From positions 2,974,001 through 3,038,000 of the forward strand of contig NZ_CP030941.1 in the NCBI RefSeq assembly GCF_036621415.1: 64,000 nt of DNA, written 5' to 3'. The translations under genes were made by a program, and so were the position numbers. Within the stretch, counting starts at the first letter, position 1. The number at the start of each line of letters is the position of its first letter. This stretch comes from Nitratireductor thuwali (GTDB taxonomy: Bacteria > Pseudomonadota > Alphaproteobacteria > Rhizobiales > Rhizobiaceae). Shown here piece by piece: positions 3,048 to 40,790 of this stretch. Under the pieces are notes generated by a model, which was not told where the DNA came from, did no database searches, and saw only the letters and a program-made list of their open reading frames with translations.

Positions 3048-3095
3048 TGATTGTCAAGTTTCAGCGATCGCCGCGCCCCGCATGAGGAAGGACAA

Positions 3096-4517: not shown

Positions 4518-4529
4518 CGCGGGCCGCCG

Positions 4530-5405: not shown

Positions 5406-5629
5406 TGTTGAAAAGCATAATGCGGAATCGCCCATTATCAAGCGCCAATCGCCGGCCTTATGCTCCATCCACGAAATTCCGACGGAGATAATGATGATGG
5501 ATTTCCTGCATGGGCTGGTCCTGCTCAACCACATATCGCACAAGACGAACGAGAACGATCGCCGGCCGGGCGGGGCCCAAAGGAGCCGGTATCGGCCGCG
5601 CCGCCTTTGGCGCGGCGTTGCAGGCCTTT

Positions 5630-6607
5630 TCAGACGATATCGACGATGACGTTGCCGACCGCCTGCCCGCCTTCCACCGCCTCGTGCGCCTTGGCGATCT
5701 CGTCGAGCCGGAACCGGGCCGCCACGTCGTGCTTGAGCGCGTTGGAGGCGAGCAGCGCCGTCAGCTGGTCGATGGCCCTGGCGCGCGCTTCCTCCTGCAA
5801 TTCGTAGACCAGGAACACCTCGAGGGTGAGGCTGTTCCACAGCATGGCAGGGAAGGAGAGCGCGATGTCGCCGGCATAGTTCGAGCCGTAGGAAACGCAC
5901 TTTCCATGCGCCGCCAGCACCCCTTGGGACAGGAGATCGGCGGTGCTGGCAAAATCCATGTCGATGATGCCGTCGACGCCCTTTCCGGCGGTCAGGTCCT
6001 TCACCACCTTGGCGACGTCCTTGGACTTGTAGTCGATCACGAAGTCCGCGCCCGCCGCGCGGGCCCGCGCCGCGCGGGCCGGTGACGCGGTCCCCAGAAC
6101 GCGCGCGCCGCGCGCCTTTGCGACCTGCAGCGCATAGTGCGCGACGGAAGAGCCGGCGCCGATGATCAGAAGCGTCTTGCCGGGCAGCTTTTCGAGCCTG
6201 TTGACCGCGTGCAGCGCCGTCAGCGCCGGTATTCCGAAACAGGCGCCGGTGGCGTAGTCGACATGTTCCGGCAGCCGGACCGCCTGGGCCTCCGGCACGC
6301 AGATATACTCGGCGGCGGTGCCCGACGTCCGGCGCCATTGCCCGTTCCACAGCCACACGCGTTCGCCGATGCGCGAACGGCTGACGCCCGCACCGACGGC
6401 ATCGATGTCGCCCGCCCCGTCGCTGTGGGGAATGATGCGCGGCCCGATCAGCGGGCGGCCCGCGCGCCCCTTCACGTCCGACGGATTGACGCCTGAAGCG
6501 TGGACCCGGACCCGCACCTCGCCGGCGGCGGGCTGGGGCGTCGGCGTCTCGCCCACCTCCAGCACGTTCCGCGCCGGGCCGTTCCGTTCGTACCAGGCAG
6601 CTTTCAC
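5630..6607 (-). CDS. NADPH:quinone oxidoreductase-like, zinc-less MDR dehydrogenase
   Basis: 325 residues starting at a GTG at 6607 with GGAGG nearby. This is a medium-chain dehydrogenase/reductase: GroES-like domain at about 1-115 with SGVNPSDVKGRAG, then a Rossmann domain beginning near TLLIIGAGSSVAHYALQVAKA, and a C-terminal return to the first domain. The structural-zinc cysteine cluster is absent, as in the QOR subgroup (quinone or enone reductase, NADPH dependent). The nucleotide loop reads GAGSSV rather than GAAGGV, a modest departure. A divergent glutamine-synthetase-like gene begins 198 bp away. Substrate cannot be stated. Confidence 0.85.
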   Translation of the reverse strand: MKAAWYERNGPARNVLEVGETPTPQPAAGEVRVRVHASGVNPSDVKGRAGRPLIGPRIIPHSDGAGDIDAVGAGVSRSRIGERVWLWNGQWRRTSGTAAEYICVPEAQAVRLPEHVDYATGACFGIPALTALHAVNRLEKLPGKTLLIIGAGSSVAHYALQVAKARGARVLGTASPARAARARAAGADFVIDYKSKDVAKVVKDLTAGKGVDGIIDMDFASTADLLSQGVLAAHGKCVSYGSNYAGDIALSFPAMLWNSLTLEVFLVYELQEEARARAIDQLTALLASNALKHDVAARFRLDEIAKAHEAVEGGQAVGNVIVDIV

Positions 6608-6805
6608 GGGCGTCCTCCTTCGCCATTTCCAGCCGACAAGCTGCCGCACCCTGCTGCCATTGACAAGTCCGAGTGAAGCGGCGCACCTTTCCCGCAAGCG
6701 CAACAGCAAGACAGGCGTAATTTGCGACAGAGAGCCAACGGACCTGCCAAAACAGGCACGGGCGCCAGGATACCGCTTCCCCACAGCAAGCTCCCCGATA
6801 CCGCC

Positions 6806-8191
6806 ATGGCCGTCTCCGTGCCGGAAAGAACGTCCACCGGCTTCACCTCCGCCGAGCACGAGGCGGAATACGAGGCATTCGTCGCGGAGCACCCCGACCT
6901 GGAAGCGGTCGAGTTCCTGCTGGTCGACCCCAACGGCGTCATCCGCGGCAAGTGGGCGCCGGGCGACAGCTTGAAAAAGGCGTATCAGGAGGGCGTGAAC
7001 TTCCCCATGTCCCTGCATGGGCTCGATGTCTGGGGCCGGGAGGTGGAAGAAACCGGCCTCCATATCGAGACCGGCGACAAGGACGGCTATTGCCGGGCGA
7101 CGCGCGGCTCTCTTTCCATCGTTCCATGGGCCAAGCGCAAGACCGCGCAGGTGCTGTTGCAGACCTTCACGCCCGAAGGCGAGCCCTATATGGCCTGCTC
7201 CCGCCAGGTGCTCAAGCGCAAGGTGCAGGAGGTCAACGCGAAGGGTTTCTACCCCACCGTCGCCTTCGAACTGGAGTTCTACCTGCTCGATCCGGAGACC
7301 GATTGGGACGACGGCATGCCCGCGCCGGTCGGCGCCATGGCCGGGCCCGACAGGCTGCGCATGTACGGCCTCGACGACCTGGCCGAGCATCAGGATCTGT
7401 TCGACATGATCCGCGACGCTGCCGATGCCCAGAGCCTGCCGATCGACACGATCATCAAGGAAGCCGCGCCCGGCCAGTTCGAGGTCAATCTAAAGCATCG
7501 CGCCGATCCGCTGCGCGCCGCCGACGACGTGATCCTCCTGCGCCGCATCGTCATGGGCTGCGCCCGCGCCCACGGGCTGACGGCCACCTTCATGGCCAAG
7601 CCTTTTCTGGAATATGCCGGCAACGGCATGCATGTGCACGCATCCATCTGCGACCGCGACGGCAATAACGTCTTTGGCGGCGGCGAGGGGAGGGCGCGGC
7701 TGGAGTCGGCGGTGGCCGGCCTGCTCACCACAATGCCGGAATCCCTGCTCCTCTTCATCAACACCTGGAACGGTTTTCGCCGCATCACGCCCGGCTCCTA
7801 CGCGCCCACCCGTGCCGTCTGGGCCGAGAACAACCGCTCGGTCGCCCTGCGCATCCCCGTCTCGAACGATGAGAACAAGCGCGTCGAGCACCGCATCGCC
7901 GGCGCCGACGCCAACCCCTACCTGGTCATGGCCGCCATCATCCAGGGCATGGTGGAAGGCATCGAGAGCAGGGCAAAGCCGCCGCCGCCGGTGGAGGGCA
8001 ACGCCTATGAGGGGGACGGGCCGGCCCTGCCGGACGACATGGATGATGCGCTGCAGCTCACCATGCGCAGCCACTTCGTCGACCGTGCGCTGGGTCCCTT
8101 GCTCGCCAAGGTCTATCGCGACTTGAAGCGTGCCGAGATCGTCGCCTTCTGGGGAGAGATAACGCCGCTCGAACGCACGACATATCTTTGA
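6806..8191 (+). CDS. PuuA-like glutamine synthetase family (gamma-glutamyl-polyamine synthetase)
   Basis: 461 residues from ATG 6806; an earlier in-frame start at 6722 would add 28 unconvincing residues, and neither start has a strong ribosome binding site. The catalytic beta-grasp and ATP-binding parts are complete: ELEFYLLDPE (metal-binding Glu), GNGMHVHAS, and NRSVALRIP. Length and sequence fit the GlnT/PuuA branch, which joins glutamate to an amine such as putrescine, rather than GlnA, which has a conserved adenylylation tyrosine loop not seen here. It lies 117 bp upstream of a PotFGHI-type polyamine transporter on the same strand, which supports a role in polyamine catabolism by the gamma-glutamyl route. 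Confidence 0.82.
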   Translation: MAVSVPERTSTGFTSAEHEAEYEAFVAEHPDLEAVEFLLVDPNGVIRGKWAPGDSLKKAYQEGVNFPMSLHGLDVWGREVEETGLHIETGDKDGYCRATRGSLSIVPWAKRKTAQVLLQTFTPEGEPYMACSRQVLKRKVQEVNAKGFYPTVAFELEFYLLDPETDWDDGMPAPVGAMAGPDRLRMYGLDDLAEHQDLFDMIRDAADAQSLPIDTIIKEAAPGQFEVNLKHRADPLRAADDVILLRRIVMGCARAHGLTATFMAKPFLEYAGNGMHVHASICDRDGNNVFGGGEGRARLESAVAGLLTTMPESLLLFINTWNGFRRITPGSYAPTRAVWAENNRSVALRIPVSNDENKRVEHRIAGADANPYLVMAAIIQGMVEGIESRAKPPPPVEGNAYEGDGPALPDDMDDALQLTMRSHFVDRALGPLLAKVYRDLKRAEIVAFWGEITPLERTTYL

Positions 8192-8308
8192 TGGAACAAG
8201 AAAATTCGCGCTTGTCGCATTCACGAAACGACAATAGGTTTTAACAAAACACGAAGCCGTCTGCCTGGATGGTGGACAAATAAGCATGCCGCAAATGGGA
8301 GTCACTCG

Positions 8309-9406
8309 ATGATACGCAAGACCGCACTGCTTTCAGCAGTTTCCCTCGCCGCGACGGTTCTGGGGCTGAATGCCCACGCTCAGGACCGCGTCGTGAACGT
8401 CTACAACTGGTCGGACTATATCGACGAATCCATCCTGGAGGACTTCACTGCGGAGACCGGTATCGAGGTCGTCTATGACGTGTTCGATTCCAACGAGATC
8501 CTGGAGACCAAGCTGCTGGCCGGCGGCACCGGCTATGATGTCGTGGTCCCCACCGGCACCTTTCTCGCCCGCCAGATCCAGGCCGGCGTGTTCCAGAAGC
8601 TCGACAAGTCGAAGCTGCCGAACCTTGAGAATATGTGGGACGTCATCGAGAACCGCACCGAGAAATACGACCCCGGCAACGAATACTCGATCAACTACAT
8701 GTGGGGCACCACCGGCATCGGCTACAATGTCGACAAGGTGAAGGAAGCGCTCGGCATCGACAAGATCGATTCCTGGGACGTCGTCTTCGATCCGGAAAAG
8801 CTTTCCAAGCTCAAGGATTGCGGCGTGCACATGCTCGACGCTCCGGCCGAGATGATCCCGGCCGCGCTGAACTATCTGGGCGAAGACCCGGACGGGCGGT
8901 CGCCGGAACAGATCGCGATGGCGGAGGAACTGCTGCTTTCCATTCGCCCCTACATCCGCAAGTTCCATTCTTCCGAGTACATCAACGCGCTCGCCAATGG
9001 CGACATATGCTTGGCCGTGGGCTGGTCCGGCGACGTCTTCCAGGCCCGGGACCGCGCCGCCGAGGCCGGTCAGGGCGTGACCGTCAGCTATTCCATCCCC
9101 AAGGAAGGCGCGCAGATGTGGTTCGACCAGATGGCCATCCCCGCCGACGCGCCCCACGTCGAGGAGGCGCATGAATTCATCAACTACATCATGCGTCCCG
9201 AAGTCATCGCCAAGGCCTCCAACTACGTGTTCTACGCCAACGGCAACAAGGCCTCCCAGGAACTCCTGGACGAGGAGGTGATCGGCGATCCGGCGGTCTA
9301 TCCCGATCAGGAAACGCTCGACAATCTCTTCACCACCACGCCGCCCGATCCCCGCGAGCAGCGCCTGATTACCCGGACCTGGACAAGGGTCGTCACCGGC
9401 CAGTAA
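8309..9406 (+). CDS. potF: Polyamine ABC transporter, periplasmic binding protein
   Basis: 365 residues with a signal peptide (MIRKTALLSAVSLAATVLG, cleavage after an AHA box near residue 25). The mature part begins with VVNVYNWSDYIDESIL, the hallmark of PotD/PotF spermidine/putrescine binding proteins; YNWSDY lines the amine site. GTTGIGYN and QMAIPADAPH further match the family. Start ATG 8309 follows a GGAG. It is the first gene of a four-gene transporter operon, and the upstream 117 bp gap is AT-richer than its surroundings and probably carries a promoter. Which amine is bound cannot be read from the sequence. Confidence 0.93.
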   Translation: MIRKTALLSAVSLAATVLGLNAHAQDRVVNVYNWSDYIDESILEDFTAETGIEVVYDVFDSNEILETKLLAGGTGYDVVVPTGTFLARQIQAGVFQKLDKSKLPNLENMWDVIENRTEKYDPGNEYSINYMWGTTGIGYNVDKVKEALGIDKIDSWDVVFDPEKLSKLKDCGVHMLDAPAEMIPAALNYLGEDPDGRSPEQIAMAEELLLSIRPYIRKFHSSEYINALANGDICLAVGWSGDVFQARDRAAEAGQGVTVSYSIPKEGAQMWFDQMAIPADAPHVEEAHEFINYIMRPEVIAKASNYVFYANGNKASQELLDEEVIGDPAVYPDQETLDNLFTTTPPDPREQRLITRTWTRVVTGQ

Positions 9407-28228: not shown

Positions 28229-29370
28229 CGCCCGATCCAGTACGTTCCGGACATCGGCACCGGCAGGAATTCTCGATTGATGGCGTCGATCGTCGCCTGC
28301 GGATCGATATCGGCAAAGAGTTCCGGGTGTAAGAGCTTCGCCAGGAACTCGATCATCGCGATGTGGGCCGGCGTGTCGTTGAACATATGCCAGAGCGCGA
28401 AGGCATTTCCTTCCTTGACCGCCGTCAGCTGCGACAGCCCGGGCGTGGCGAGCAGCTTAGCGAAGGAGGCGTCCGCCTCCTCACGCGTTACGCCGGGCCC
28501 GAGCACGAGGCCGCCCCGCGCCGCCAGATGCGCGCCGCCGGTGGCGATGTAGATCTCCGGATCGTCGACGATCAGCTGCTCTAGGCTGATGTCGCCATAG
28601 AGGCCGCTGATATGGTCGAGCGCGACGTTCCGGCCCTTGGCAAGCGCGATCATGTCGTTGAACACGCCGCGCCCCGGCGACGGGCAGCACGGCATGCCGC
28701 CGGCGTGAACGTGCATGAACACGCCCGGCGGGCGCAGGTCGTCGGAGGCGAGGCGCGACTTCACCCGCTCGAGCCGGGAATTGTAGAACGCGACAAAGGC
28801 CTCGGCGCGATCCTCGGCGCCGATCGCCTGCCCGAGCATGCGCAGGCTGGGCAGAGCATTCTCCAGCGGATGCGAAAAGAAATCGACGACCAGCACCGGG
28901 ATCTCCAATTGCTCCAGCAGGTCCATGGACCGCCTGGTCGCAGCCGCGCTCGAATCGTACAGATCAAGTACCACGAGGTCCGGCTGAAGCTGTACGATCG
29001 TTTCCACCGGGAGCCCGTTGGCGGCATTGCCGCCGAGTACGGTAATCGCATCGATGTGCGGGAATTTTTCCGCCCAGGCGCCGTATTGCGCGCCGTCCAG
29101 CTTGAAGTCTCCGCGCCAGCCGACCACGAGCGATGCAGGGTCGGGATGCAGCAGGCCGAGCACCGGCAGCTGGCGTCCGGCGCCCATCACGATGCGGCTG
29201 GCCGGTGCGTCGAGCGTCACCTTCCTGCCAAGGACGTCGGCGATCTCGACCGCGCCCGCCGGCGCAATGGCCACTGACGCAATGATTGTCACCAACGCGA
29301 ACCATCCACAAAGCATGCGGGTCGCCAGGTACCTGGCGGCCCGCTGAAAGATTGCAAGCCCGCCTACCAT
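28225..29370 (-). CDS. Ferric-siderophore periplasmic binding protein (FecB/FepB type)
   Basis: 381 residues from ATG 29370. A long signal sequence (hydrophobic LCGWFALVTIIASVAIAPAG) ends near residue 40. The rest is a periplasmic-binding-protein-2 (TroA-like) fold: VLGRKVTLDAPASRIVMG, then LQPDLVVLDLYDSS, and a helical backbone. HVHAGGMPCCPSP is an unusual Cys-Cys stretch mid-protein. The start lies inside the end of the TonB receptor gene (ATGGTAG overlap), so reinitiation is likely and no separate ribosome binding site is needed. Confidence 0.9.
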   Translation of the reverse strand: MVGGLAIFQRAARYLATRMLCGWFALVTIIASVAIAPAGAVEIADVLGRKVTLDAPASRIVMGAGRQLPVLGLLHPDPASLVVGWRGDFKLDGAQYGAWAEKFPHIDAITVLGGNAANGLPVETIVQLQPDLVVLDLYDSSAAATRRSMDLLEQLEIPVLVVDFFSHPLENALPSLRMLGQAIGAEDRAEAFVAFYNSRLERVKSRLASDDLRPPGVFMHVHAGGMPCCPSPGRGVFNDMIALAKGRNVALDHISGLYGDISLEQLIVDDPEIYIATGGAHLAARGGLVLGPGVTREEADASFAKLLATPGLSQLTAVKEGNAFALWHMFNDTPAHIAMIEFLAKLLHPELFADIDPQATIDAINREFLPVPMSGTYWIGR

Positions 29371-31556
29371 CTGTACGTCAAGTTCGCCGTTATCGTTCTG
29401 CCCGCGCCATAGTTGCAGCTGCCTCCGGTGAGATTGAGGCAGTGTGTCACATAGGTCTCGTCGAAAAGGTTTGTCACGTTCACCCGCAATGTGGAGCCTT
29501 CGAGCTCTTCGTTCAGCACCCCGAAATCCAACTCGGCGCCGATATCGACCAACGTGCGGGCGGGGATGCGCAACAGCGGGTTGTATGCCGCATCGCTCTG
29601 ATAGGAAGACGTGGCGCGCACGCCTGCACTCAGCGAAAGACCCGGTATGTAGTGGGGCCGGTAGTTGACCCAAAGCGCCCCCTGATGCTGGGGAAGGCGC
29701 AGCATCTCGCGGCCGAGCTCGACGGGATTGTTCGAGCGCGTCACCTCCGAGTCCGAGTAGGCGTAGGCGGCGATGATGTCGAGCGACGGGGTAACCTCGT
29801 ACTTGCCTTCGATCTCGATGCCGCGCACGCGCTGCTCGCCAGTCTGGACGGAAGCGTTTGCGACATCCGGGTCCGGGGTCAGGGCGTTCTCGATCTGCAG
29901 GTCGAAATAGGAAACGCTGATCAGGCCGCGCGCGCCGGTCGGCTCGTACTTCACGCCAACCTCGAACTGGCGTGCCTTCTGCGCCTCGAATGGCCGGCCG
30001 AACCGGTCCGCGCCGAGCGTCGGCAGGAACGAGGTGGAATAGCTGACGTAGGGCGCGATGCCGTTGTCGAACAGATAGGTCAGGCCGGCGCGACCGGTCA
30101 GCGCGGTGTCGTTGTTGGTGGTGGCCGCGCCGCTTATCCGGTTCAGGCTGTCGATCTCGGAGATGTCGTAGCGCAATCCGAAGGTCCCGATCCAGCGATC
30201 GTAGCGGATCTGGTCCTGCGCATAGAAGCCGAGCTGCCGCGAGTTCTGCCGGATGGACGTGGTCACCGGCGCGGTGGGAAAGCCAAAGCCGTAGTCGGGG
30301 TCGAGGTAGTCGATCGGAGCGACGCCCACACCGTAGTTGCCGAAGGCCCTTTCAGACCTCGTCGCGTTGTAGTCGATGCCGAAGAGCCCGGTGTGCTGGA
30401 ACGCGCCCGTATCGAAATTCGCCTCGACCTGCGTGTCGACCGCAAAGGAACTGAGCTGGTCGTCAGAGACCGCAGTCACGCGATTGAGTGACGAGCCGGT
30501 CGGCGTGCCGGGAAAGGGATAGGCAAAGGCGGGGTTCACCAGCGCCAGGTCCATATGCTGGTCGGAGGCCGCGTAGCGAAGGTTCTGCCGCACGGTCCAG
30601 GTTTCGTTGAAGCGATGGTCGAACTCATAGCCGAGCGCATAGAAGTCGCGCGTGAAGGAACCCCAGGTCGGATCACCGAGGAAAACGTCGCGCGGGATCT
30701 GCCCGAACGGGTTGGGCAGCAGTGTGCCGCGTGCCGGATAGAAACGAGGGCTGAAGATTGGGTCGTCCTTTTGATAGTAGCCGTAGACGGTGAGCGAAGT
30801 ATCGTCCGATGGCGCCCAGGTGATGCTCGGTGCCAGCATGATCTGCCGATCCCGCTCATGGTCGATCTGGGTCCCGAGGTTCTTGGCAAGCCCCACGAAG
30901 CGCGCGAGGAACTGCCCGTCCTCGGTCAACTTGCCGGTCACGTCCACCGCGCCCTGGACGCCGCCGAAAGCCGTGGTCTGCAGCGATATCTCGCGCTGCG
31001 TGTCGGCCTGCGGACGCTTGCTCACCTGGTTGACCAGCCCGCCAGGAAGCGCGCGTCCGTAGAGCACCGAAGCCGGACCTTTGATCACTTCCACGCGCTC
31101 CAGCGCATAGGGGTTGATGGAGGGCAGCGCGTAGCCGACCGGATCGCCGGGAAGCATCAGGCCGTCGAGCCACATCGTGCCCAGCGCGTTGAAGCCGCGG
31201 ATGTAGAGCCAGTCGTAGCGGATGTCGTGCCCATTGGGCTCGTAGAGTACGCCCGGCGTGTAGCGCAGCGCGTCGGAGACCGACCGGGCGCCCTGGGCTT
31301 CCATTTGGTCACGCGTGACCACATTGACTGCCTGCGGCGTCTCGATCAGCGGCGTGGCGGTCTTGAGGGTCGTGGCGCTGCGTTTGGCAACGACGCCCGT
31401 ATCGGGGCCCTTGGCCGGCTCGTCACCCTCTCCTTCGACCACCAGACGCTGCAGCAGCGTCGTGCCTTCCTGAGCCTCGGCAGGCGTCAGGCACGAACTG
31501 CCCGACAGCACCGCGAGACCGAGCGAAAAACCGATGAATGTGCTGCCTGTACGCAA
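29364..31556 (-). CDS. TonB-dependent ferric-siderophore receptor
   Basis: 730 residues from a TTG at 31556, the only start codon after an upstream in-frame stop; GGGG lies nearby. Signal peptide about residues 1-28 (ending AEAQ). A TonB box-like DTGVV is near residue 52, then the plug domain (LIETPQAVNVVTRDQM, YTPGVLYE, ERVEVIKGPASVLYGRALPGGLVN) and a 22-strand barrel ending in TITANLTYRW with C-terminal aromatic Trp. No N-terminal STN signalling domain, so control is likely by the divergent AraC regulator. Sequence fits the FhuA/FoxA/FpvA siderophore group; the ligand is probably hydroxamate-like but this is inference. Confidence 0.94.
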   Translation of the reverse strand: MRTGSTFIGFSLGLAVLSGSSCLTPAEAQEGTTLLQRLVVEGEGDEPAKGPDTGVVAKRSATTLKTATPLIETPQAVNVVTRDQMEAQGARSVSDALRYTPGVLYEPNGHDIRYDWLYIRGFNALGTMWLDGLMLPGDPVGYALPSINPYALERVEVIKGPASVLYGRALPGGLVNQVSKRPQADTQREISLQTTAFGGVQGAVDVTGKLTEDGQFLARFVGLAKNLGTQIDHERDRQIMLAPSITWAPSDDTSLTVYGYYQKDDPIFSPRFYPARGTLLPNPFGQIPRDVFLGDPTWGSFTRDFYALGYEFDHRFNETWTVRQNLRYAASDQHMDLALVNPAFAYPFPGTPTGSSLNRVTAVSDDQLSSFAVDTQVEANFDTGAFQHTGLFGIDYNATRSERAFGNYGVGVAPIDYLDPDYGFGFPTAPVTTSIRQNSRQLGFYAQDQIRYDRWIGTFGLRYDISEIDSLNRISGAATTNNDTALTGRAGLTYLFDNGIAPYVSYSTSFLPTLGADRFGRPFEAQKARQFEVGVKYEPTGARGLISVSYFDLQIENALTPDPDVANASVQTGEQRVRGIEIEGKYEVTPSLDIIAAYAYSDSEVTRSNNPVELGREMLRLPQHQGALWVNYRPHYIPGLSLSAGVRATSSYQSDAAYNPLLRIPARTLVDIGAELDFGVLNEELEGSTLRVNVTNLFDETYVTHCLNLTGGSCNYGAGRTITANLTYRW

Positions 31557-31583
31557 AACGGTAGACCCCTGCCGTAAACCTGA

Positions 31584-31601
31584 TTAAGACGGTCATCTTA
31601 A
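31584..31601. promoter_or_regulatory. Dyad TTAAGA-N6-TCTTAA between receptor and AraC regulator
   Basis: Perfect 6-bp arms (31584-31589, 31596-31601) in the divergent intergenic region. It lies 28 bases upstream of the receptor start. It could be an operator for the regulator or an iron regulator; it is not a match to the ICE box at 19640. Confidence 0.35.
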
Positions 31602-31737
31602 GCGCTTGTCGTAGCCAGGGGCCGTGAGCAACGCAACGCCCCGGCCTTTGCGGCAGCGCCAAATTCGTTTGCGCGAGAGGCAAGCGGGGTCGAAACAGGT
31701 GGGGAACGGCGGCGTGGACATAGTGGAAGGCGCGGTG

Positions 31738-32721
31738 ATGCGGGTCGGCGACCTGGTCCGCCGCCCGGGCATCACCTTGGAAAGCCGGGAGGGCTTCGCC
31801 TCGCTCGATGACGCCCTGTTTCGCGGTTATTTCTGGCATCGCGAGCTGCGGCGCGGCCTGACCGTGCATGCCAGCGACGTGTTCGAGGAGGCCGGTTTCA
31901 CCGCGCTGTCGTCGCAGCATGAAGGCTTGTCCTGCATCTTCTTTCTTGACGGCGATGTCGACGTGGAGATCGGTGAACAGGGCTTTCACTTCAGGGGCGA
32001 TGGCCGCCTGCGGGAGGGACTGCTGCTGCCCAGCGTGCGCCCGGAAAGTTTCAAGCGCTGTTCGCCCGGCCGGCAGCGGATCAGGCATCTCGTCGTCTCG
32101 GCCACCCCGGAATGGCTCGACCGCGACGGGCTGGCGTCGGTGGATGACCGCAGCGCGATCAACGCAGCGCTGAGAGCGCATCTTGATGCGCGGAGCTGGC
32201 AAACGGGCCGGCGGCTGGCCTATCTCGTCGAACGGATCCTGCAGCTCGGCGGTTCACCCTCCGGTTTGGACCAGCTGCTGGTCGAAAGCGCGGCCGTCGA
32301 GATCGTGGCCGAGGCGCTTACATCCGCAACGGGCCGGGATGCGGCATTGCCCGGGAAGCCGCTCAATCTTTCTTCCCGCGACAGCACGCGCCTGCGGCGG
32401 GCTCACGATTTCATCCATGCGAATTTGAACATGTGGCCGAGCGTGGAAGCGATCGCGCGTGAGGCCGGAATGAGTCCGAGCAGCCTGCAGCGCCTGTTCA
32501 GGACGGCCTACGGCATCAGCGTCGTGGAGCAAATCCGCCGGGCCAAGCTCGAGTTCGCGCGCGACGCGCTCGCTGCGGGCGAGTATACGATCAAAGAGGC
32601 TGCGTTCATGTCCGGCTACTCGAGCGCCGCAAACTTCGCGACCGCATTCAAGCGTCATTTCGGCGGGCCGCCGAGTGACGTTGCAAGAGTTCGGCCAAAC
32701 CTCCGCACGCACAATACATAG
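31738..32721 (+). CDS. AraC-family regulator of the siderophore operon (PchR-like)
   Basis: 327 residues if started at ATG 31738 with GGAAGG upstream. GTG at 31714 (AGGTGGGG upstream) and GTG at 31624 are in-frame alternatives. The C-terminal 100 residues hold two helix-turn-helix motifs (WPSVEAIAREAGMSPSSLQR and TIKEAAFMSGYSSAANFATA). The N-terminal domain is cupin-like, with FFLDGDVDVEIGEQG. Divergence from a TonB receptor gene is the arrangement of PchR/AlcR-type activators that sense the incoming ferric siderophore. Likely activates the operon when siderophore is present. Confidence 0.88.
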   Translation: MRVGDLVRRPGITLESREGFASLDDALFRGYFWHRELRRGLTVHASDVFEEAGFTALSSQHEGLSCIFFLDGDVDVEIGEQGFHFRGDGRLREGLLLPSVRPESFKRCSPGRQRIRHLVVSATPEWLDRDGLASVDDRSAINAALRAHLDARSWQTGRRLAYLVERILQLGGSPSGLDQLLVESAAVEIVAEALTSATGRDAALPGKPLNLSSRDSTRLRRAHDFIHANLNMWPSVEAIAREAGMSPSSLQRLFRTAYGISVVEQIRRAKLEFARDALAAGEYTIKEAAFMSGYSSAANFATAFKRHFGGPPSDVARVRPNLRTHNT

Positions 32722-33410
32722 AGCTCGGCCTCGCGCGAAGCAGTCGACACCGCGTCAGTTTCAAGGCCAGGTTTGGAGCGAATAGGTATCCTCATCCGCA
32801 TGGCCGGGGTGGCGCGGCTGCCGAACGGCTGCTTACTCTGTTTTTCGGCCAGATCGGACAGTCAGCAGACGGCCCCAGGGCTGCCTGCCTGCAACGCGCC
32901 GGAATGTCGACGGTAGAGCCCAGCTTTTTTTGTCACTTACCGTAAGCAGACATTGCCTGCGATGAAACGAAGCCGCAGATCTCGGTTGCAGACTTTCGAG
33001 ACATTCGGATTGGCGATCGGTACGGGCGCGCTCGACCCTTTTGTGCCGTTGACGATAAATTCAGTGAGCACGAACGCGACATTGTAAACGGTATGAATGT
33101 CGAGGAGGCGGCCTGATATCAAGGTCGCCAGCTCACGGCCGATCGTGAGCGTTCCGACACCGGGATATCCATTCAAGACTACATGCTCGTGTTCGCCCTA
33201 ATGCCATTGGGAAAACGCTAAAGCGGTGGGGTTGTGATGTCACCATTCGATGCCGCGGATCGTCGCCCCTTTCCGACCCGGAAGCTCGGTTCATTAAAGG
33301 CACGGTAGGTCTGTGGCCGTGTATCGCGCCTCGCTCACGCCAACAGCGCATCCGAAATCGACGGCTCGAAACGGTCCCGCACGTCGCTTCTGTCGATCGG
33401 TTTGCAACAG
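32722..33410. other. Non-coding / decayed stretch
   Basis: Apart from a short P-loop kinase remnant (33054-33176, minus) no supported gene, RNA or terminator is seen here. It separates the siderophore region from the phosphatase-ABC cassette and looks like gene decay. Confidence 0.5.
33054..33176 (-). pseudogene. Fragment of a P-loop kinase/ATPase with broken Walker A
   Basis: About 41 codons read LNGYPGVGTLTIGREL and then GRLLDIHTVYNVAFVLTEF. This resembles the N-terminus of small AAA-type kinases whose start is INGYPGVGKLT and whose next block is RLLDNHxxYNVAFALTEF. The Walker A lysine is Thr here, the region before it has an out-of-frame ATG followed by a stop, and after TEF the similarity ends. 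A non-functional remnant. Confidence 0.5.
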
Positions 33411-34151
33411 CTATGTCAGCCGTTCGGTAACTCGGTTCATGTGTTCGGCGGCCATGGCATCATCGAAGTATGTCCGGAACCCGCCGTATCGTTCGTCGAC
33501 GTGACTGAGAAGTGAACGGATGGTGGCAGGCTCGCAGGACAGCAGCCTTAGGGCCACGTCGTCGGGAAGACCGCGCGCAACTGCCTGTTGCCTCAACCTG
33601 TCCAGAAGAGGGGTGGCGACACTGCCGGTCAGGGCATAATCGTCGACGATCTCGTCGTGGCCGACGCCGGCCAGCGACAGGAGCATGGCCGCCACCAGGC
33701 CGGTGCGGTCCTTGCCGGCACTGCAGTTGAACAGAACCACGCCCTCATCGGCATCGGCGACCGCCGCGAGCACACGGCCCATGGCAGGGCGGCAGCGGTC
33801 CGCGGCGTCGACATAGCGCGCGGCGAGATCGAACATGCCGGGCCCCCTGGTCAACAGATCCACCGGGGCCAGTTCCGAAAAGAGCGGAACGTGGTTGTAG
33901 CGAACCGCCTCATGAACGTGGAATGGGCTTGGCTGGTTTTCGAGTTCGACCGGGCTGCGCAGGTCGATCACCGTTCTCAGACCCATCTCCAGGAGGCGTT
34001 CGATATCGCCGGGCGTCAGCTCGTGGAGGCCATCGGCGCGCAGGATAGAGCGCCAGCGCGTGACACCGCCAGTGCCGATCGCATAGCCGCCGAGATCGCG
34101 GACGTTGAAAGCGCCTTCCAGGTGAATGTGGCGCTCGAATATTGCGGTCAT
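33411..34151 (-). CDS. Tyrosine-phosphatase-like protein (Y_phosphatase3 family)
   Basis: 246 residues from ATG 34151. The catalytic P-loop is NCSAGKDRTG with nucleophile Cys143 and Arg149 (C-x5-R); the N-terminal block GAFNVRDLGGYAI and LRTVIDLRSPVELE are typical of the LipA/TbLip-type phosphatases that act on phosphotyrosine, phosphoinositides or other phosphomonoesters. No signal peptide, so cytoplasmic. Its start overlaps the upstream permease stop by one base, so it is the last gene of the ABC operon. Together with the metallophosphoesterase at 37280 it suggests that the imported compound carries phosphate. Confidence 0.88.
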   Translation of the reverse strand: MTAIFERHIHLEGAFNVRDLGGYAIGTGGVTRWRSILRADGLHELTPGDIERLLEMGLRTVIDLRSPVELENQPSPFHVHEAVRYNHVPLFSELAPVDLLTRGPGMFDLAARYVDAADRCRPAMGRVLAAVADADEGVVLFNCSAGKDRTGLVAAMLLSLAGVGHDEIVDDYALTGSVATPLLDRLRQQAVARGLPDDVALRLLSCEPATIRSLLSHVDERYGGFRTYFDDAMAAEHMNRVTERLT

Positions 34152-34969
34152 CAGCGGATACCCGATTTCATGAAGGAGTCGACGATCTGGCGTTGCAGAA
34201 CAAGGTAGAGGATCAGGATCGGCAAGGACGCAAGCGTGGCTGCGGCCATCAGCAGGCCCCAGTCGTTGCCTTCCTGCGTCATGAAGAACTGAAGGCCGAT
34301 CTGCACGACGGAATTCTCCATGCGTCTGATCAGGAGAAGTGGCCAGAAATAGTCGTTCCAGGCCGAGATGAAGCAGAGGATGCCCACCGAGGCAAGTGGC
34401 GCCCGCATATTCGGCAACACCACCTCCAGCAGTGTCCGCAGGCTGGAAGTGCCGTCCATGCGTGCGGCCTCCACCACCTCGCGGGGAAAGCCGCGCATGG
34501 CATTGTAGATCACCAGGACTGCGATGGCCGCCGCCGCATTGGGGATGACCAGACCGGCGAGGCTGTCGAGAAGGCCAAGCCGCGTGGCCAGAACATAGTT
34601 GGGTATCATGACCACCTGGAACGGCACCAGCCAGGAAAGCGCGATCAGCGAGTGGACAAGCCGTCCACCAGGGAAGCGCCACCGAACCAATGCCCAGGCT
34701 GCCAGCAACCCCGTCGCAACCTGCGCGATCGCGGTGGCTCCGGCCATGACGAAGGTGTTCCAGATAATGCGAAAGATCGGCATTGCCTCGATCACTGCCC
34801 GGTAGTTGTCGAGCGTTGGCGCAGTTGGAAACAGCCCTGTGGAGAACACCGTGTTCTCCGGCCTGAAGGATGTCTGGACCATCCAGTAGACCGGAAAGAT
34901 GGCCAGCAGCGACAGCGTGATCATCACGCCATGGGCGAAAAAGCGGCCCGCGCGCGCATCATTCATCAT
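34151..34969 (-). CDS. ABC sugar/glycerophosphate-type transporter permease (UgpE/MalG family)
   Basis: 272 residues from ATG 34969, supported by GGAGG 10 bases upstream; a TTG three codons earlier also exists. Six membrane helices, the first near residues 10-35; WMVQTSFRPENTVF is characteristic of the MalG/UgpE class, and EAARMDGTSSLRTLLEVVLP is the coupling loop. Overlaps the preceding permease by 11 bases and the phosphatase gene by one. Confidence 0.92.
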   Translation of the reverse strand: MMNDARAGRFFAHGVMITLSLLAIFPVYWMVQTSFRPENTVFSTGLFPTAPTLDNYRAVIEAMPIFRIIWNTFVMAGATAIAQVATGLLAAWALVRWRFPGGRLVHSLIALSWLVPFQVVMIPNYVLATRLGLLDSLAGLVIPNAAAAIAVLVIYNAMRGFPREVVEAARMDGTSSLRTLLEVVLPNMRAPLASVGILCFISAWNDYFWPLLLIRRMENSVVQIGLQFFMTQEGNDWGLLMAAATLASLPILILYLVLQRQIVDSFMKSGIR

Positions 34970-35891
34970 AGACGGCAAGCCTCCGCATGAGAGCCAGGCA
35001 GACCAGTGCGGTCACCCCGAACACGGCAAAGACAAGCATGCCCGCGGCCGTGCTCCAGCCGGCTGCCATCGTCTTGAAGCCGTATTCCCACATCACGTAA
35101 TAGACGTTGGTGGTCGAACGGAGCGGCCCGCCGCCGGTGAGGGCATTGATATAGACGAAGCTCCATTGCGCGCCGAACAGGATGGTCATCATCGTCAACA
35201 GCAGGATAGTCGGCGACAGGAGCGGCAGGCGTATGTCGCGGACGATCTGCCAGCGGCTCGCGCCATCCATTCGTGCCGCCTCGACATAGCTCGGGTTGAT
35301 CGCGCTGTCGGCGGCGGCAAAGAGCAACGTGGAAAAGCCCATCAGCTTCCATCCGGTGACCCACACAAGCGTCCACAGCGCCACCTTCGGATCGCGCAGG
35401 AAGCCGACGGTCTCGAAGCCCAGCCCACTGAGCCAGGCATTCACCAGCCCATGATCATCGTTGAGGAGCCAGCGCCACAGAATGGCAGCCACGATGGGAG
35501 CCACGATCATCGGCACGAAGATCAGCGTCCGATAGAGGTTACGCAGCGGCCCGCTGAGCCCCCCTGTCAGAAGCGCGACGGCAAGCGGAATGCCCACCGA
35601 CAGAGGAAGGAGGCCGATCGTGTAGGAGATCGTGTTGAGCACCGCCGCTTGCATGTCCGGCAGCCCGAGGAGGTTTCGATAATTGTCGAAGCCGACATAG
35701 AGCGGCTCGGACCGGGGCAACATATTCCACTGGTAGAAGGACAGTTCGAACGCCTGCAACAGAGGCAGATAGGTCCAAACCATCACAACGGCTATGGCCG
35801 GGGCCAGGTAGAGCCAGGGTTCGATATGGCGAAACCGCAGCCTTGGGAGGATGCGGGGAATCTGCTGCTGAGCGGGGATTGCTGTGTTCAT
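34959..35891 (-). CDS. ABC sugar/glycerophosphate-type transporter permease (UgpA/MalF family)
   Basis: 310 residues from ATG 35891. Six membrane helices starting with WLYLAPAIAVVMVWTYLPLL. The coupling loop is YVEAARMDGASRWQIVRDIR, followed by ALTGGGPLRSTTNVYYVMWE, a segment seen in UgpA and related carbohydrate permeases. Partner of the MalG-type permease, with which it overlaps. Confidence 0.92.
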   Translation of the reverse strand: MNTAIPAQQQIPRILPRLRFRHIEPWLYLAPAIAVVMVWTYLPLLQAFELSFYQWNMLPRSEPLYVGFDNYRNLLGLPDMQAAVLNTISYTIGLLPLSVGIPLAVALLTGGLSGPLRNLYRTLIFVPMIVAPIVAAILWRWLLNDDHGLVNAWLSGLGFETVGFLRDPKVALWTLVWVTGWKLMGFSTLLFAAADSAINPSYVEAARMDGASRWQIVRDIRLPLLSPTILLLTMMTILFGAQWSFVYINALTGGGPLRSTTNVYYVMWEYGFKTMAAGWSTAAGMLVFAVFGVTALVCLALMRRLAVYDE

Positions 35892-35945
35892 GACGATCTT
35901 CGAAAAAGTGGTCGCCGGAGCCGAAGCTCCGGCGCGCAAGAAGGA

Positions 35946-37250
35946 TCAGTGGCCGGCAGGCATCAGGGGCTGGGCAGTCTCCTGTGCCGTACGCAGCACT
36001 TCATAGGGATCGCCGTCGCCGAAGACCGCCTCGGTCACGGCTTCCTTCATCATGTTCTCGACCTGCCGGTAGTTGGGGCCGGGGAAAGCGACGTTCGCCG
36101 TCAGCCGATCGAGCTGCTCGATATTGGCCTGGAACTTCGGATTTTCCTCGAGCCAGCCCTTGAGATACCGCTCGCTCTCGATCGCCTCGGGACGAAGCGG
36201 CAGGTAGCCGATCTTGGAGGTGATCGTCGTGTAGGCTTCGTTGGAGGTCAGGAACTTCATCAGTTCCCATGACGCACGCTGCTTTGCCGGATCCTCGGAG
36301 AACATGAAGATCGCCGAGCCCGAATTGGTGGGTGCGGTCGGCTTGTCTCCGAAGCTGGGCATCGCCGCCAGGCCGAGCTCGAAATTGCCCTCAGCTGCCT
36401 GCTCGAAGCGGCTAAGAACAGCGGAGGTGAACAGGAACATGCCGAGATTTCCGGACTGGAACGTGTCCATGTGGGCAGCCACGTCGATGCGCGCATGCGC
36501 ACCGCTGTCCATCAGGTCACGCAGCATGGCGACCGCGTCGGCCTGGTCCTGATCGGCGAATGTCAGACGGTTGCCCTCACGCACCTTGCCGCCATTGGAC
36601 ATGACGATGGATTGATAGACAAACGTGCCGTCAATCGGCCCGTAGGCGCCGGGGAAGAAACCGTGCTTGCCTGTGTTCTCGGCAATCGCGATGCCGGCCT
36701 GCTTGACCTCTTCCCAGGTGCGGGGCGGCTGATCGGGATCGAGGCCGGCCTCGCGGAAGAGGTCGCGGTTGATGAACATCACCGGGGTGGAGAAGACATA
36801 AGCGAGGCCATAGGTCTTGCCGTTCACCTCACCGAGCGCCAGACCGTTGGGCACAAAGCCCTCGGCATGAGCGGCGAGTTCCTCGCCCGCGACGTCTTCG
36901 AGCGGCTGCGCGCCAAGCTGCTCGGCGGCATAGATGAGATCGCGGAAGACGAGCTGAGCAACGCCCACGTCCTGCCCGGCGACCATATCGGCCTGAACCC
37001 GGCTCAGGACCTCGTTCGAAGGAACGGCGATCGGCTCGACCGTCACCATTGGATTGGCTTCTTCGAAGGCGGCGATCAGTTCGAGCGTCGCTTCGCGGCC
37101 GAGGCCGGCAGAGGCGAGATTGTAGTTATAGAAGGAGATGGTGACGGGTTCATCGATGCTGTCGGCCATCTGGGCACTGGCGCCGTTCAAGCCGCCTGCC
37201 ATGACGAAGCAGGTTGAGAGTGCAAGGCTGAGAAACTGTCTGCGGATCAT
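35946..37250 (-). CDS. ABC transporter extracellular solute-binding protein (family 1)
   Basis: 434 residues with a signal peptide (LSLALSTCFVMAGGLNGASA). The mature part is a family-1 solute-binding protein close in layout to UgpB: VTISFYNYNLASAG, GKTYGLAYVFSTPVMFINRD, and PTNSGSAIFMFSEDPAKQRA. Proteins of this class bind sugars, sn-glycerol-3-phosphate or glycerophosphodiesters. The ligand is not determined by anything I can see, but the operon's two phosphatases point to a phosphorylated compound. Confidence 0.9.
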   Translation of the reverse strand: MIRRQFLSLALSTCFVMAGGLNGASAQMADSIDEPVTISFYNYNLASAGLGREATLELIAAFEEANPMVTVEPIAVPSNEVLSRVQADMVAGQDVGVAQLVFRDLIYAAEQLGAQPLEDVAGEELAAHAEGFVPNGLALGEVNGKTYGLAYVFSTPVMFINRDLFREAGLDPDQPPRTWEEVKQAGIAIAENTGKHGFFPGAYGPIDGTFVYQSIVMSNGGKVREGNRLTFADQDQADAVAMLRDLMDSGAHARIDVAAHMDTFQSGNLGMFLFTSAVLSRFEQAAEGNFELGLAAMPSFGDKPTAPTNSGSAIFMFSEDPAKQRASWELMKFLTSNEAYTTITSKIGYLPLRPEAIESERYLKGWLEENPKFQANIEQLDRLTANVAFPGPNYRQVENMMKEAVTEAVFGDGDPYEVLRTAQETAQPLMPAGH

Positions 37251-37279
37251 GGGATTGGTCCTTTTCGGCTTGAGAGAGC

Positions 37280-38128
37280 TTATTCGGCGGCGGTCTTCAC
37301 CGGCGCGGCCCGCTGACGCATCAGCTCCAGCGGGTAGACGTTGAGTTCAGCCCGGTCGCTGGGCAGCGGAACAAAGGCCATGGTCAGGCCGCTCTTGCGG
37401 ATGGTGCCCAGCCCGAAAGAGGAGCCGCGCACCATGCGCAGCACGTTCGGCTTGAGGATGTCGCTGGCTGCGTGCTGCCCGGTACCGACCACCACGGGAA
37501 TCCCGTGCCAGTTCGACACGCGGTCGTGATGGATATGGCCGCTGAGGATGCCGAGCACGTTGCGCTCTTTGAGCATGTCGGCAAGCCGCCGGGAGTGCTC
37601 GTGGACGATGGTGCGCCAGTGGGCGGGATCGGGATCCTCGCCAAGCGACGGCGGATGGTGGGAGACGATCAGCTTCGGCAGGTCGAGATGCCGGTCCAGC
37701 GTTTCGGCAAGCCAGACGAACTGCTCCGGCTCGATGCTGCCGCCAATGTAGCCGGGCGTACTGGAATCGAGCGTGATGATGTGGATGCCATCGACCACCA
37801 GATCATGGCAAAAGGGTGCATCGAGATCGTAATCGCGGCCGACCATTCCGCGGTAGAAACCTTCCCGCGTGTCGTGGTTGCCCAGCGCATAGACGACCGG
37901 CAGGTCGAGCGCAGCCATGGCTTTCTTGAGATGGATGTAGCTTGCCGCATCGCCGCGGTTCGAAAGATCGCCGCTGGCCACCAGGAAACGCGGTCGGGGT
38001 TCGATGCCGGCGAGCAGACGCAGGATGCTGTCGAGCGTCTCACGGGTATCGCTGAACAGATGGTCGTCTGTTTCGTGATCGCCGATGTGCAGGTCCGTCA
38101 GATGGACGAAAGTGATTTCTCGCGACAT
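37280..38128 (-). CDS. Metallophosphoesterase (CpdA/GpdQ-like phosphodiesterase)
   Basis: 282 residues. All calcineurin-like motifs are intact: D12-L-H14, GDLSNRG (Asp54), GNHD (83-86), SHHPP (about 156-160) and GHIHHD (197-202). No signal peptide, so cytoplasmic. Closest in layout to class III cyclic-nucleotide or glycerophosphodiester phosphodiesterases. Its first 31 bases overlap the end of the ABC ATPase gene, and the binding-protein gene follows 29 bp later, so it is an integral member of the transporter operon. Probable role: opening an imported phosphodiester before the phosphatase at 33411 removes phosphate. That pathway is inference. Confidence 0.88.
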
Positions 38129-39243
38129 GCGTCAGCTCCAATTGTCTTTGTATCGATGGCCGGAATCACAAGCGGATCTACCCGGCTGCCATTCACGGCG
38201 AGGAAGGCGTGGACGGCTTCGTCGGCTATGGCGATGCCGTAGGGCACGGTGGGCAGGACGGTCCCCGCCGGCAGGGCCACCGCCACGATCGTGTCGGCCA
38301 CCGCGCCATGCAGATGGATCTCGCTGCCGAGGTCCTCGATCATCTCGGCTTCAAAAGGCAGGATGCCGGCGGCGGTGGCGCCCGTGACAGGGCGGGCAGC
38401 GCTCGGCCTGAAGGCGATCTCGATGGCCGTGCCTTCGGCGAGGTCCCAGCGCAGTTGCGGCCAGGGCATCCTGCGGTCTGCCAGACAGGCGCTACCTTCG
38501 CGATCGATGACAGCCGGCAGGAAATTCATTGGCGGAGAACCGAGGAAGTTGGCCACGAAGCGGCTGTTGGGCCGCCGATAGACCTCGGCGGGGCTGCCGA
38601 CCTGTTCGATCAGCCCATCATTCATGACCACGAGCTTGTCGGCCAGCGTCATCGCTTCGACCTGATCGTGGGTCACGAAGACGCTGGTGGTGCGCAGTTC
38701 CCGGTGCAGCCGCTTGATCTCGAGCCGCATCTGGATGCGCAGCTTGGCATCGAGGTTCGACAGGGGCTCGTCGAAGAGGAAGATGCCGGGCGAGCGCACC
38801 ATGGCGCGCCCCATGGCGACACGCTGCCTCTGCCCACCGGAAAGCTCCGACGGCTTGCGGTGCAGCAGCAACTCCAGACCCAGCGTGCCGGCGATGCGGC
38901 GCACCCTCTCGTCACGCTCCGCACGCGGCATCCCAGCGACCTTGAGGGCGTAGCCGATATTCTGCGCAACCGTCATGTGCGGGTAGAGGGCATAATTCTG
39001 GAAGACCATCGCGCAACCGCGCCGCGCAGGCTCCACATCGTTGACCACGCGTCCGTCGATCGAAATCTCGCCGGCGGTGATGTCCTCGAGGCCCGCGATC
39101 ATCCGCAAGAGGGTCGACTTGCCGCAGCCTGAAGGTCCGAGAATGACCATGAAGGAGCCATTCTCGACGATCAGGTCGATGCCGCGGACGGCGGGGGTGG
39201 ACCCGTAGAGCTTATGGACGCTGGAGATGTGTATCGATGCCAC
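38098..39243 (-). CDS. ABC transporter ATP-binding protein (UgpC/MalK type)
   Basis: 381 residues. Walker [10 protein letters not shown] at 36-44, signature [17 protein letters not shown], Walker [16 protein letters not shown], switch [13 protein letters not shown], and a C-terminal OB/TOBE domain of about 140 residues. This is the CUT1 family ATPase. It is the first gene of the cassette and is preceded by a 125 bp gap with a dyad that may bind the TetR protein. Confidence 0.93.
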
Positions 39244-39319
39244 GGTCTGATGCCTTGTCGTCGCTTTTCAGCTACGGGGGCATCTCTAGCGGCGCGTCAT
39301 ATACGCTGCGTGACGGTCT

Positions 39320-39334
39320 TCGAACGCTGTTCGA
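39320..39334. promoter_or_regulatory. Dyad TCGAAC-GCT-GTTCGA upstream of the ABC-phosphatase operon
   Basis: Perfect 6-bp arms around three bases in the gap between the TetR gene and the ABC ATPase gene. A TetR-family regulator is encoded immediately upstream, which makes this the best visible operator candidate. Confidence 0.4.
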
Positions 39335-39368
39335 TACTGTGGAAAACGACGACTCTGGCAGCCCCGGG

Positions 39369-39995
39369 TCAGGATGCGCGCCGGAACATGGGCGCCACGA
39401 CCTCGACGATGCGCGCGATGACCTGCTCGGCATCGGAAAAATCGATCGTATGGGCGGTGAGCATCTCGTTGCGCAGGCGGGATCGCGTCACCTGGGAGCG
39501 AATGCCGAGCGCGCAGCTCATGCGCCACCCGATATCGGCTTCGCTGAGCCACGGCGCCAGAACCCGGAACTGGTGAATGAATACCTGGTGGTGCTCGATC
39601 CCTTCAATCACGGACCGGTAGGCTTCCGGATCCTGGCTGCGCTGCGACATCGAGGTGAAATGGACCAGGACACGGTATTTGGAGTTGGGCTCCAGGCTCC
39701 AGCGAACCGACGGGCCGACAAGAGCCGCGATGACGTCTTCGACCGCGGGCGGATTTGGGGAGGATTTCTGCGTGGCGGCGTTGAGCATCGACAGCCGCTC
39801 GGCGTTGAGCCGCTTGTAGACGCGCTCCGCCGTGGCGATGATCAGACGTTCCTGCGAGCCGAAATGGTAGCTGATGGAAGAAGGCGTGGTCCCGGCCACG
39901 CTGGCCAGCCTGCGCGCTGTCAACTGGTCGACACTGTCGACGCGACACAGCAGCTCCTCGCAGGCGTCGAGCAGCCTGATGGGCGTCTGATTCAT
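39369..39995 (-). CDS. TetR-family transcriptional regulator
   Basis: 208 residues from ATG 39995. The N-terminal helix-turn-helix is in about residues 20-55 (LTARRLASVAGTTPSSISYHF), with the following YHFGSQERLIIATAERVYKRL typical of TetR proteins. The C-terminal ligand domain has a TetR_C-like helical make-up. It lies upstream of the ABC-phosphatase operon on the same strand, and is probably its local repressor. Ligand unknown. Confidence 0.87.
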   Translation of the reverse strand: MNQTPIRLLDACEELLCRVDSVDQLTARRLASVAGTTPSSISYHFGSQERLIIATAERVYKRLNAERLSMLNAATQKSSPNPPAVEDVIAALVGPSVRWSLEPNSKYRVLVHFTSMSQRSQDPEAYRSVIEGIEHHQVFIHQFRVLAPWLSEADIGWRMSCALGIRSQVTRSRLRNEMLTAHTIDFSDAEQVIARIVEVVAPMFRRAS

Positions 39996-40029
39996 GAGAG
40001 CTGTCCGCCATTCTACCGATGGGCAGAGA

Positions 40030-40790
40030 CTACGCGCGGCAAATCGCGTCCATATGAAGGCGGTGTTGTTTCTCGGTTGAACGCGATGCCGCCTGCCGAT
40101 CGATGGCGTTTAGCCGTTCCATGTCGTGGATGATCAGCTGCTGGCGGCTTCTCGCCAGCGGCATGAAGATGGCGTCAGCCCGCTCGGACGAATCCGGCAC
40201 AGGGTGAAACCCATGCCGTCGACCACCTGCAGGCCCGAACGGAACGTGACGTCGACTGCATTGTGCAGTCCCGTCCCGATGATCACCGGAATCCCGTACC
40301 AGTGGATCACGCTGTCGAAATGGACGTGGCCGGAGAGGATCGCGAGAACCTTCCTGCCGCGAACCGCTTCGAGCCTCTTGGTGCTGGCCGGGTCTAGGCT
40401 GTGCCAGTTCGCCTCGGTTCCGTCGAGATGCGGCGGATGGTGGCAGCCGGCCAGCTTGGGCAGGTCCGTGTTCTTGGAGAGGGCATCGTTCAGGAAGTCG
40501 ATCTGGTCCTCGCCAGGGCGCCGGGGATACGACCGGGAATGCTGTAATCGAGCGCGATGACATGCGTGCCGGAAATCACTTCCTCATGCAGACAGGGCGC
40601 TTGCGGCTCACCGGCTCCAAGCCTCACGGAGCGGAATGCCGGCCGCAAAGCGTGATTGCCCGGAGCAAAGATCTTCGGCGCGGCGATCGGCGCCAGCAAG
40701 CCGTCGTCGCCAAGCCGTTGAACGAACCCGCTTCTTGACGTTGAGACGCCGCAGGTGCCGCAGGGCGCCGCGGCAGAACACAATTCCAGA
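40030..40790 (-). pseudogene. Decayed metallophosphoesterase, paralogue-like to the gene at 37280
   Basis: In three reading frames on the minus strand one finds successive parts of a calcineurin-like phosphodiesterase: FAPGNHALRPAF, a CLHEEVISGTHVIALDYS block, then VLAILSGHVHFDSVIHWYGI followed by PVIIGTGLHN, then GFTLCRIRPSGLT. At least two frameshifts separate them. The GNHD motif reads GNHA and the N-terminal D-x-H motif is missing. The 5' side stops at the palindromic repeat at 40791. The GH-H block resembles [19 protein letters not shown] of the intact gene, so the two are related. It lies just upstream of the TetR gene. Confidence 0.75.

Follow-up and report, generated by a model that had tools for sequence, protein, structure and literature searches.

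The stretch of DNA analysed here, 64,000 nucleotides of Nitratireductor thuwali (contig NZ_CP030941.1, positions 2,974,001 to 3,038,000; hereafter the window), is part of a contig in a 4.75-Mb genome and carries at positions 33411–39995, all on the minus strand, seven mostly overlapping or tightly spaced genes that would together serve the uptake and cleavage of a phosphoester. Read along that strand, they encode a TetR-type regulator (39369–39995), the ATPase of an ATP-binding cassette (ABC) importer of the MalK/UgpC type (38098–39243, GTG start), a metallophosphoesterase (MPE; 37280–38128), a solute-binding protein of the CUT1 type (SBP; 35946–37250), two permeases (34959–35939, with a listed TTG start, and 34151–34978) and a PF13350 phosphatase of the PtpB class (PTP; 33411–34151). 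The original prediction, made from the letters and their open reading frames, had described the six transport and enzyme genes with an upstream TetR gene, and position and Pfam families agree with that description.

The Pfam scores of the transport proteins all exceeded their cut-offs (SBP_bac_8, 110.8 bits; SBP_bac_1, 89.6 bits; BPD_transp_1, 58.6 and 67.4 bits; ABC_tran, 117.3 bits), and the ATPase additionally passed the NCBIfam UgpC subfamily model with 478.3 bits (cut-off 432), while its OB_MalK match of 23.3 bits stayed below the cut-off of 27. The SBP_bac_1/8 binding protein, the two BPD_transp_1 permeases and the MalK-like ATPase thus identify a CUT1 ABC importer. In the regulator, TetR_C_30 scored above and TetR_N below the respective cut-off. 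According to Pfam, no glycosidase and no sugar kinase is encoded among the seven genes. A simple hydropathy check found a strongly hydrophobic N-terminus in the SBP and none in the MPE or PTP, in keeping with the earlier statement that both hydrolases lack a signal peptide. The N-terminus of the SBP (37250–37200) contains a twin-arginine-like signal, IRRQFL, in which, across 45 aligned rows, R4 never varies and R3 hardly does, and the protein may be exported by the twin-arginine (Tat) route.

A gap of 125 bp separates the TetR and ATPase genes, the ATPase and MPE genes overlap by 31 bp, and 29 bp lie between the MPE and SBP genes; with the listed starts, the permease genes overlap by 20 bases, and the ATG of the PTP gene (34151) overlaps the stop codon of the second permease gene by a single base. 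Directly 3′ of the SBP gene we found a GC-rich stem-loop of nine pairs (35934–35913, minus strand). A strong stem-loop within 90 bases 3′ of the SBP gene recurs at 39 of 65 SBP–permease junctions (window counted), compared with 1.4% of shuffled sequences, and is a probable expression-balancing element, which suggests that the SBP is made in excess. Excess binding protein is a known pattern in other binding-protein operons. Given the stem-loop, the first permease likely starts at the ATG at 35891, the more probable start, so that the SBP and first permease genes stand apart with the stem-loop stretch between them.

Next, we asked how consistently these genes travel together. A search of genome contigs with an MPE alignment confirmed 147 stretches, of which the best 80 were retained and gave 77 loci. 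In 72 of the 77 the SBP gene lies directly 3′ of the MPE gene and is accompanied by both permeases, and 65 of these 72 also contain the PTP (absent from L045, L046, L048, L054, L055, L057 and L080); the SBP is missing from five MPE loci (L050, L070, L072, L075 and L077). Submission of 47 of the 77 loci led to 45 genomes (two loci lie in one genome), which were thus chosen through their MPE and which contain 54 SBP copies in 43 genomes (E ≤ 1e-60), 61 MPE copies in 45 (1e-40) and 55 PTP copies in 42 (1e-20). The MPE gene stands directly upstream of all 54 SBP copies and a PTP gene within 4.5 kb of 51 of them; the exceptions are 7 of the 61 MPE copies without an SBP and 4 of the 55 PTP copies without a nearby MPE. 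With linkage of 54/54 and 51/54, the gene set is not a chance association, and the genome-neighbourhood survey that the original prediction had proposed came out strongly positive. Across 71 units (window counted), pairwise identities are correlated between MPE and SBP (r = 0.94) and between MPE and PTP (r = 0.79).

The system is rare yet scattered. A sample of 150 genomes from the order contained the SBP in 1, the MPE in 2 (1e-30) and the PTP in 4 (1e-15), and a sample of 385 genomes from the class contained them in 2, 1 and 27, respectively; N. thuwali itself is included in every count, and the counts are lower bounds, as the class runs scored part of the first-look candidates and the MPE search misses a distant MPE in genome G423. 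The PTP matches in 26 other genomes of the class share 28–39% identity and do not include G423, so PF13350 alone is no marker of the unit. G423 is the one further SBP genome from the class sample and was picked independently of the MPE. Its locus (L106, G423:C226:1-14000, 3725–6731) has the order MPE–PTP–SBP–permease–permease, with identities to the window of 25% for the MPE (PF00149), 30% for the PTP (PF13350) and 54% for the SBP. In a Gemmobacter genome (L081, G191:C2:39000-55000, 1227–8610), one run of genes encodes SBP_bac_5, permeases, ATPases, MPE and PTP, the last two overlapping as listed and closing a dipeptide-type ABC operon; the same genome has a CUT1 version elsewhere. Together, the distant enzymes of G423 and the dipeptide-type importer of L081 suggest that the MPE and PTP work as a coupled pair on behalf of an importer.

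The position of the ATPase gene varies, upstream, downstream or absent, while MPE and SBP stay joined, and an ATPase belonging to the unit can be lost, as in Rhizobium-type loci, where none lies directly next to the MPE–SBP core. One 390-residue protein, P0032, had the appearance of an ATPase–MPE fusion; we rejected this candidate, as it consists of an ATPase gene of which only the Walker A start and the end remain, joined in frame to the MPE. Seven loci have two full units, and each type retains its own MPE, SBP and PTP. These tandem MPE–SBP–PTP units (L031, L032, L035, L036, L039, L040 and L068) lack permeases of their own in the first unit, and the two SBPs may share one importer. Neighbouring genes gave no clue to the ligand: setting aside the unit itself and a second regulator (cluster c7, found in 28 loci), every gene cluster is confined to 8 or fewer of the 78 loci.

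Both enzymes retain the residues expected of catalysts. The MPE scored 56.5 bits against Metallophos (PF00149; Pfam cut-off 21.5), is related to CpdA, Rv0805 and GpdQ, and has its metal ligands D12, H14, D54, N84, H157, H198 and H200 in all 31 aligned rows. It shares family and metal-ligand motifs with class III cyclic-nucleotide phosphodiesterases and GpdQ, yet falls under the cut-offs of its best NCBIfam matches, SpdA (69.3 bits, cut-off 400) and CpdA (68.0 bits, cut-off 225). The PTP belongs to PF13350 (Y_phosphatase3) and to the PtpB class by its Pfam score, its C-x5-R P-loop (NCSAGKDRT, with C143 and R149) and its fold, and the C-x5-R motif is present in 29 of 29 aligned rows. The residue before the catalytic cysteine (P-loop 142–150), usually His in the PtpB class, is Asn in 19 of the 29 rows and His in 10.

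We then compared the SBP pocket with those of UgpB-like phosphate-ester binding proteins, in which Tyr64, Ser143, Ser266 and Tyr342 serve as reference phosphate contacts. In the alignment, three of the four positions are conserved, namely S154, T275 (where Thr replaces Ser, as it does in a Thermus dinucleotide-binding protein, whose S127 and T240 align with S154 and T275) and Y349, while the first tyrosine is replaced, S78/N79 standing at its position. S154, T275 and Y349 do not vary among the 83 distinct family rows, and neither does G311, the counterpart of Gly303 in Phaeobacter numbering. A maltose binder has D, G and T at the three positions. As controls we used 12 weaker matches, some of them partial and two at about 20 bits, leaving out two family-member fragments (the L037 pieces). 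Eight of the 12 align over all three positions; three of these (the second L004 and L019 copies, and L092, which is a true UgpB) have S, S/T and Y, and five do not. The test is therefore not specific to the SBP family of the unit, and points instead to the UgpB-like branch.

The residues that would hold the rest of the ligand differ. Phaeobacter UgpB contacts glycerol through Glu88, Arg393 and Trp188/191 (PMC12718374). In the SBP, the Glu88 position is F102 (F in 83 of 83 rows), the Arg393 position is E398 (E in 49 of 83 rows, R in none), and the tryptophan pair is missing, with A202 and P205 in its place; a conserved arginine, R395 (77 of 83 rows), lies three residues before E398. The Thermus protein (7c0k and its mutants) and Mycobacterium tuberculosis UgpB bound to glycerophosphocholine (6r1b) share the fold and the Ser/Thr and Tyr phosphate-contact positions with the SBP, but the compared alignments show neither F102 nor E398 in them. 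The SBP and permeases have UgpB, UgpA and UgpE as their best NCBIfam matches and miss the equivalog cut-offs by a wide margin (82.5 of 411 bits for the SBP, 100.8 of 335 and 138 of 297 bits for the permeases), so that only the ATPase passes its model; a separate true UgpB (600.9 bits) is encoded elsewhere in the genome. The SBP profile fits the Thermus dinucleotide-binding protein (91.8 bits) as well as Escherichia coli UgpB (91.5 bits), and the top fold match is a glycerophosphocholine-bound UgpB whose lead is not clear. Fold comparison was dropped as a means of naming the ligand, because only a few Z units separate phosphate binders from sugar binders and Foldseek ranked the same mix. We favour as ligand a phosphoester, probably a diester other than plain glycerol phosphate or a simple glycerophosphodiester.

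Our preferred reading, to which we assign a probability of roughly 0.6, is that the genes form one uptake-and-cut unit that imports a phosphoester, opens it with the MPE and dephosphorylates the product with the PTP. The analysis itself establishes the gene order, the protein families, their conserved linkage, the catalytic motifs, the aligned pocket positions and the promoter pattern of the relatives; the ligand class, the enzyme activities, the order of the steps and the regulation are what we infer. The SBP, judging from its pocket, would capture a phosphate-containing compound in the periplasm, and the CUT1 importer would carry it into the cytoplasm. There, the MPE would hydrolyse a phosphodiester bond and the PTP would strip the phosphate from the resulting monoester, yielding inorganic phosphate and an alcohol or sugar usable by common metabolism, while the signal for the TetR-type regulator is probably the ligand or a product. 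The organophosphate uptake and dephosphorylation system of the original prediction fares well in this respect, as an importer joined to two phosphoester-cleaving enzyme families in a conserved unit fits an open-then-dephosphorylate scheme; the part that was not supported is its glycerophosphodiester candidate.

That candidate had been named first among possible ligands, and would make the unit an extra Ugp system for glycerophosphocholine, glycerophosphoinositol and similar compounds, with the MPE replacing the GDPD enzyme UgpQ. The unit does resemble UgpBAEC(Q) in its CUT1 importer, in the ATPase model and in the three phosphate-contact positions (one with Ser changed to Thr), and both the Ugp-type NCBIfam and fold matches and the relationship of the MPE to GpdQ fit such a role. 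It departs from that system in the scores of the SBP and permeases, far under the Ugp cut-offs, in the replacement of the glycerol contacts, including the lost Trp pair, and in having an MPE and a PTP for UgpQ; the true UgpB elsewhere in the genome also argues against a second one here, and we consider this explanation unlikely. Scavenging of nucleotide-type phosphodiesters released by RNA decay, such as dinucleotides or cyclic nucleotides, would account for the best NCBIfam matches of the MPE, SpdA being a 2′,3′-cyclic nucleotide phosphodiesterase, and for the fit of the SBP profile to the Thermus dinucleotide binder. The MPE lies far below both of those cut-offs, the gene neighbourhoods indicate that no nucleoside pathway accompanies the unit, and PF13350 enzymes are not generally known as nucleotidases, which leaves a nucleotide ligand rather improbable.

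The same low credence applies to an ordinary sugar importer whose phosphatases are regulatory rather than catabolic, acting in signal hydrolysis or in protein or lipid dephosphorylation. PtpB-class enzymes do have protein and lipid phosphatase activity, the importer is of the CUT1 family, and sugar-binder folds score nearly as high as the best match. The phosphate-contact positions set this explanation back, being invariant in the family, absent from five of the eight outside matches (present in three) and different in a maltose binder; moreover, an importer of the dipeptide type is likewise followed by an MPE–PTP pair, and the seven genes include neither glycosidase nor sugar kinase. It is also conceivable that the genes share no pathway and are neighbours held together by descent, as the loci have common ancestry and many of the sampled genomes are relatives of Rhizobium, Neorhizobium and Devosia. 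Against plain linkage stand the distant MPE and PTP of G423, the unrelated transporter of L081, the two full units in seven loci, and an ATPase gene that moves or vanishes while MPE and SBP stay joined; we find this account hardly credible.

Returning to the proposed uptake-and-cut unit, we examined how it might be regulated. A TetR relative precedes the unit in 44 upstream regions (window counted) and is likely a local repressor. The published PHO box reads CTGTCAT-N4-CTGTCAT, the spacer being rich in A/T (PMC3131613). We searched upstream of the first gene for this box followed by TA after 10–11 bases, in 87 regions from 76 loci and the window; many loci are closely related, and the promoter counts are hence not independent. 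Among promoters in which the MPE gene comes first, 28 of 38 had a site with no more than 4 mismatches out of 14, compared with 0/38 on the reverse strand, 15/3800 shuffles and 29/3800 random stretches of the same loci. TetR–MPE promoters reached this level in 8 of 34 (reverse 1/34; shuffles 11/3400; random 26/3400) and at most six mismatches in 19 of 34 (reverse 3/34; shuffles 315/3400; random 165/3400). For the TetR–ATPase type, to which the window belongs, the figures were 1 of 11 with at most four and 7 of 11 with at most six mismatches (reverse 0/11), the controls at six or fewer mismatches with TA at the expected distance giving 79/1100 for shuffles and 31/1100 for random stretches; two of four ATPase-first promoters had at most three mismatches (reverse 1/4, at four). 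Most of these boxes lack an A/T-rich spacer.

Upstream of the MPE gene, MPE-first promoters (for example L031:12695, L056 and L071) contain a palindrome, TGAATGAA-N2-TTCATTCA, that overlaps the upstream half of the PHO-box-like site. It has at most 2 of 16 mismatches in 27 of 38 such promoters and at most three in 29 of 38, compared with 40/3800 random stretches, and it is missing from the other promoter types (0/49). The palindrome is probably a TetR operator, and its overlap with the box, which means that the low mismatch counts in MPE-first promoters are not wholly owed to PhoB, would be consistent with joint control of one promoter by a TetR repressor and PhoB. The PHO-box-like promoters of many relatives suggest that phosphate shortage may act there as a further signal.

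The window itself contains a degenerate PHO-box-like site (40027–40060, minus strand) with 6 of 14 mismatches, followed 10 bases later by TAGTCT and lying 47 bases before the TetR start, at about the same distance and register as in relatives; it is not significant alone. We rejected it as proof of a PHO box in the window, as shuffled and random sequences also reach six mismatches. A search of the N. thuwali genome with the PHO pattern returned two one-mismatch sites, the open reading frames beside which encode, by eye, a DeoR-type regulator and a response regulator; these do not look like pst genes, so the search provided no positive control for the box. A standard promoter scan of 33000–40300 yielded no sites.

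Directly upstream of the TetR gene lies the remnant of a second MPE gene in two frames (40170–40696, minus strand), which has lost its N-terminal part and matches only residues from about 65 onward. The best match of the larger piece (52%) is the L077 copy, which adjoins a dipeptide-type importer. The remnant is outside the working unit, and a second version may thus have disappeared from this genome. On the other side, at 29364–32721, the list of open reading frames, inspected by eye, has a TonB-dependent receptor gene (minus strand) beside a divergent AraC-type regulator gene, resembling a siderophore-uptake pair.

The original prediction knew of no named system with this exact set of genes, and our literature search, covering mostly openly accessible papers, likewise found no description of an MPE combined with a PF13350 phosphatase and a CUT1 importer. 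The same logic has been published, however, for the agrocinopine (acc) genes of Agrobacterium, which encode an ABC importer (AccA–BCDE), a cytoplasmic phosphodiesterase (AccF), a putative phosphatase (AccG) and a repressor (AccR); Acc imports a sugar phosphodiester, and its inducer is the product of the first cut (PMC4526662). By its gene families, the unit of the window would match Acc in having a binding protein, an ABC importer, a phosphodiesterase, a phosphatase and a repressor encoded together. The Acc system probably differs in its type of transporter and binding protein and in its enzyme families. The acc genes establish that import-and-cleave paths occur among these bacteria, and what is new here is the combination of families rather than the logic. 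More tentatively, and with less confidence than in the uptake-and-cut unit itself, the loci could represent a previously undescribed alphaproteobacterial phosphorus-scavenging cassette in which an MPE–PtpB pair that breaks down phosphodiesters within the cell is mounted on two unrelated importers, of the CUT1 and the dipeptide type, with paralogues in some genomes for different ligands, combined control by TetR (ligand) and PhoB (phosphate), and a ligand that is neither a glycerophosphodiester nor agrocinopine.

If the proposed function is true, some soil and marine Alphaproteobacteria would have a further route to phosphorus, with a ligand of its own, in which organic phosphorus is taken up whole and then opened in the cell. 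A branch of the PtpB-class phosphatases would then have a nutritional role, and the SBP would offer a probe for an unrecognised phosphodiester in soils and seawater.

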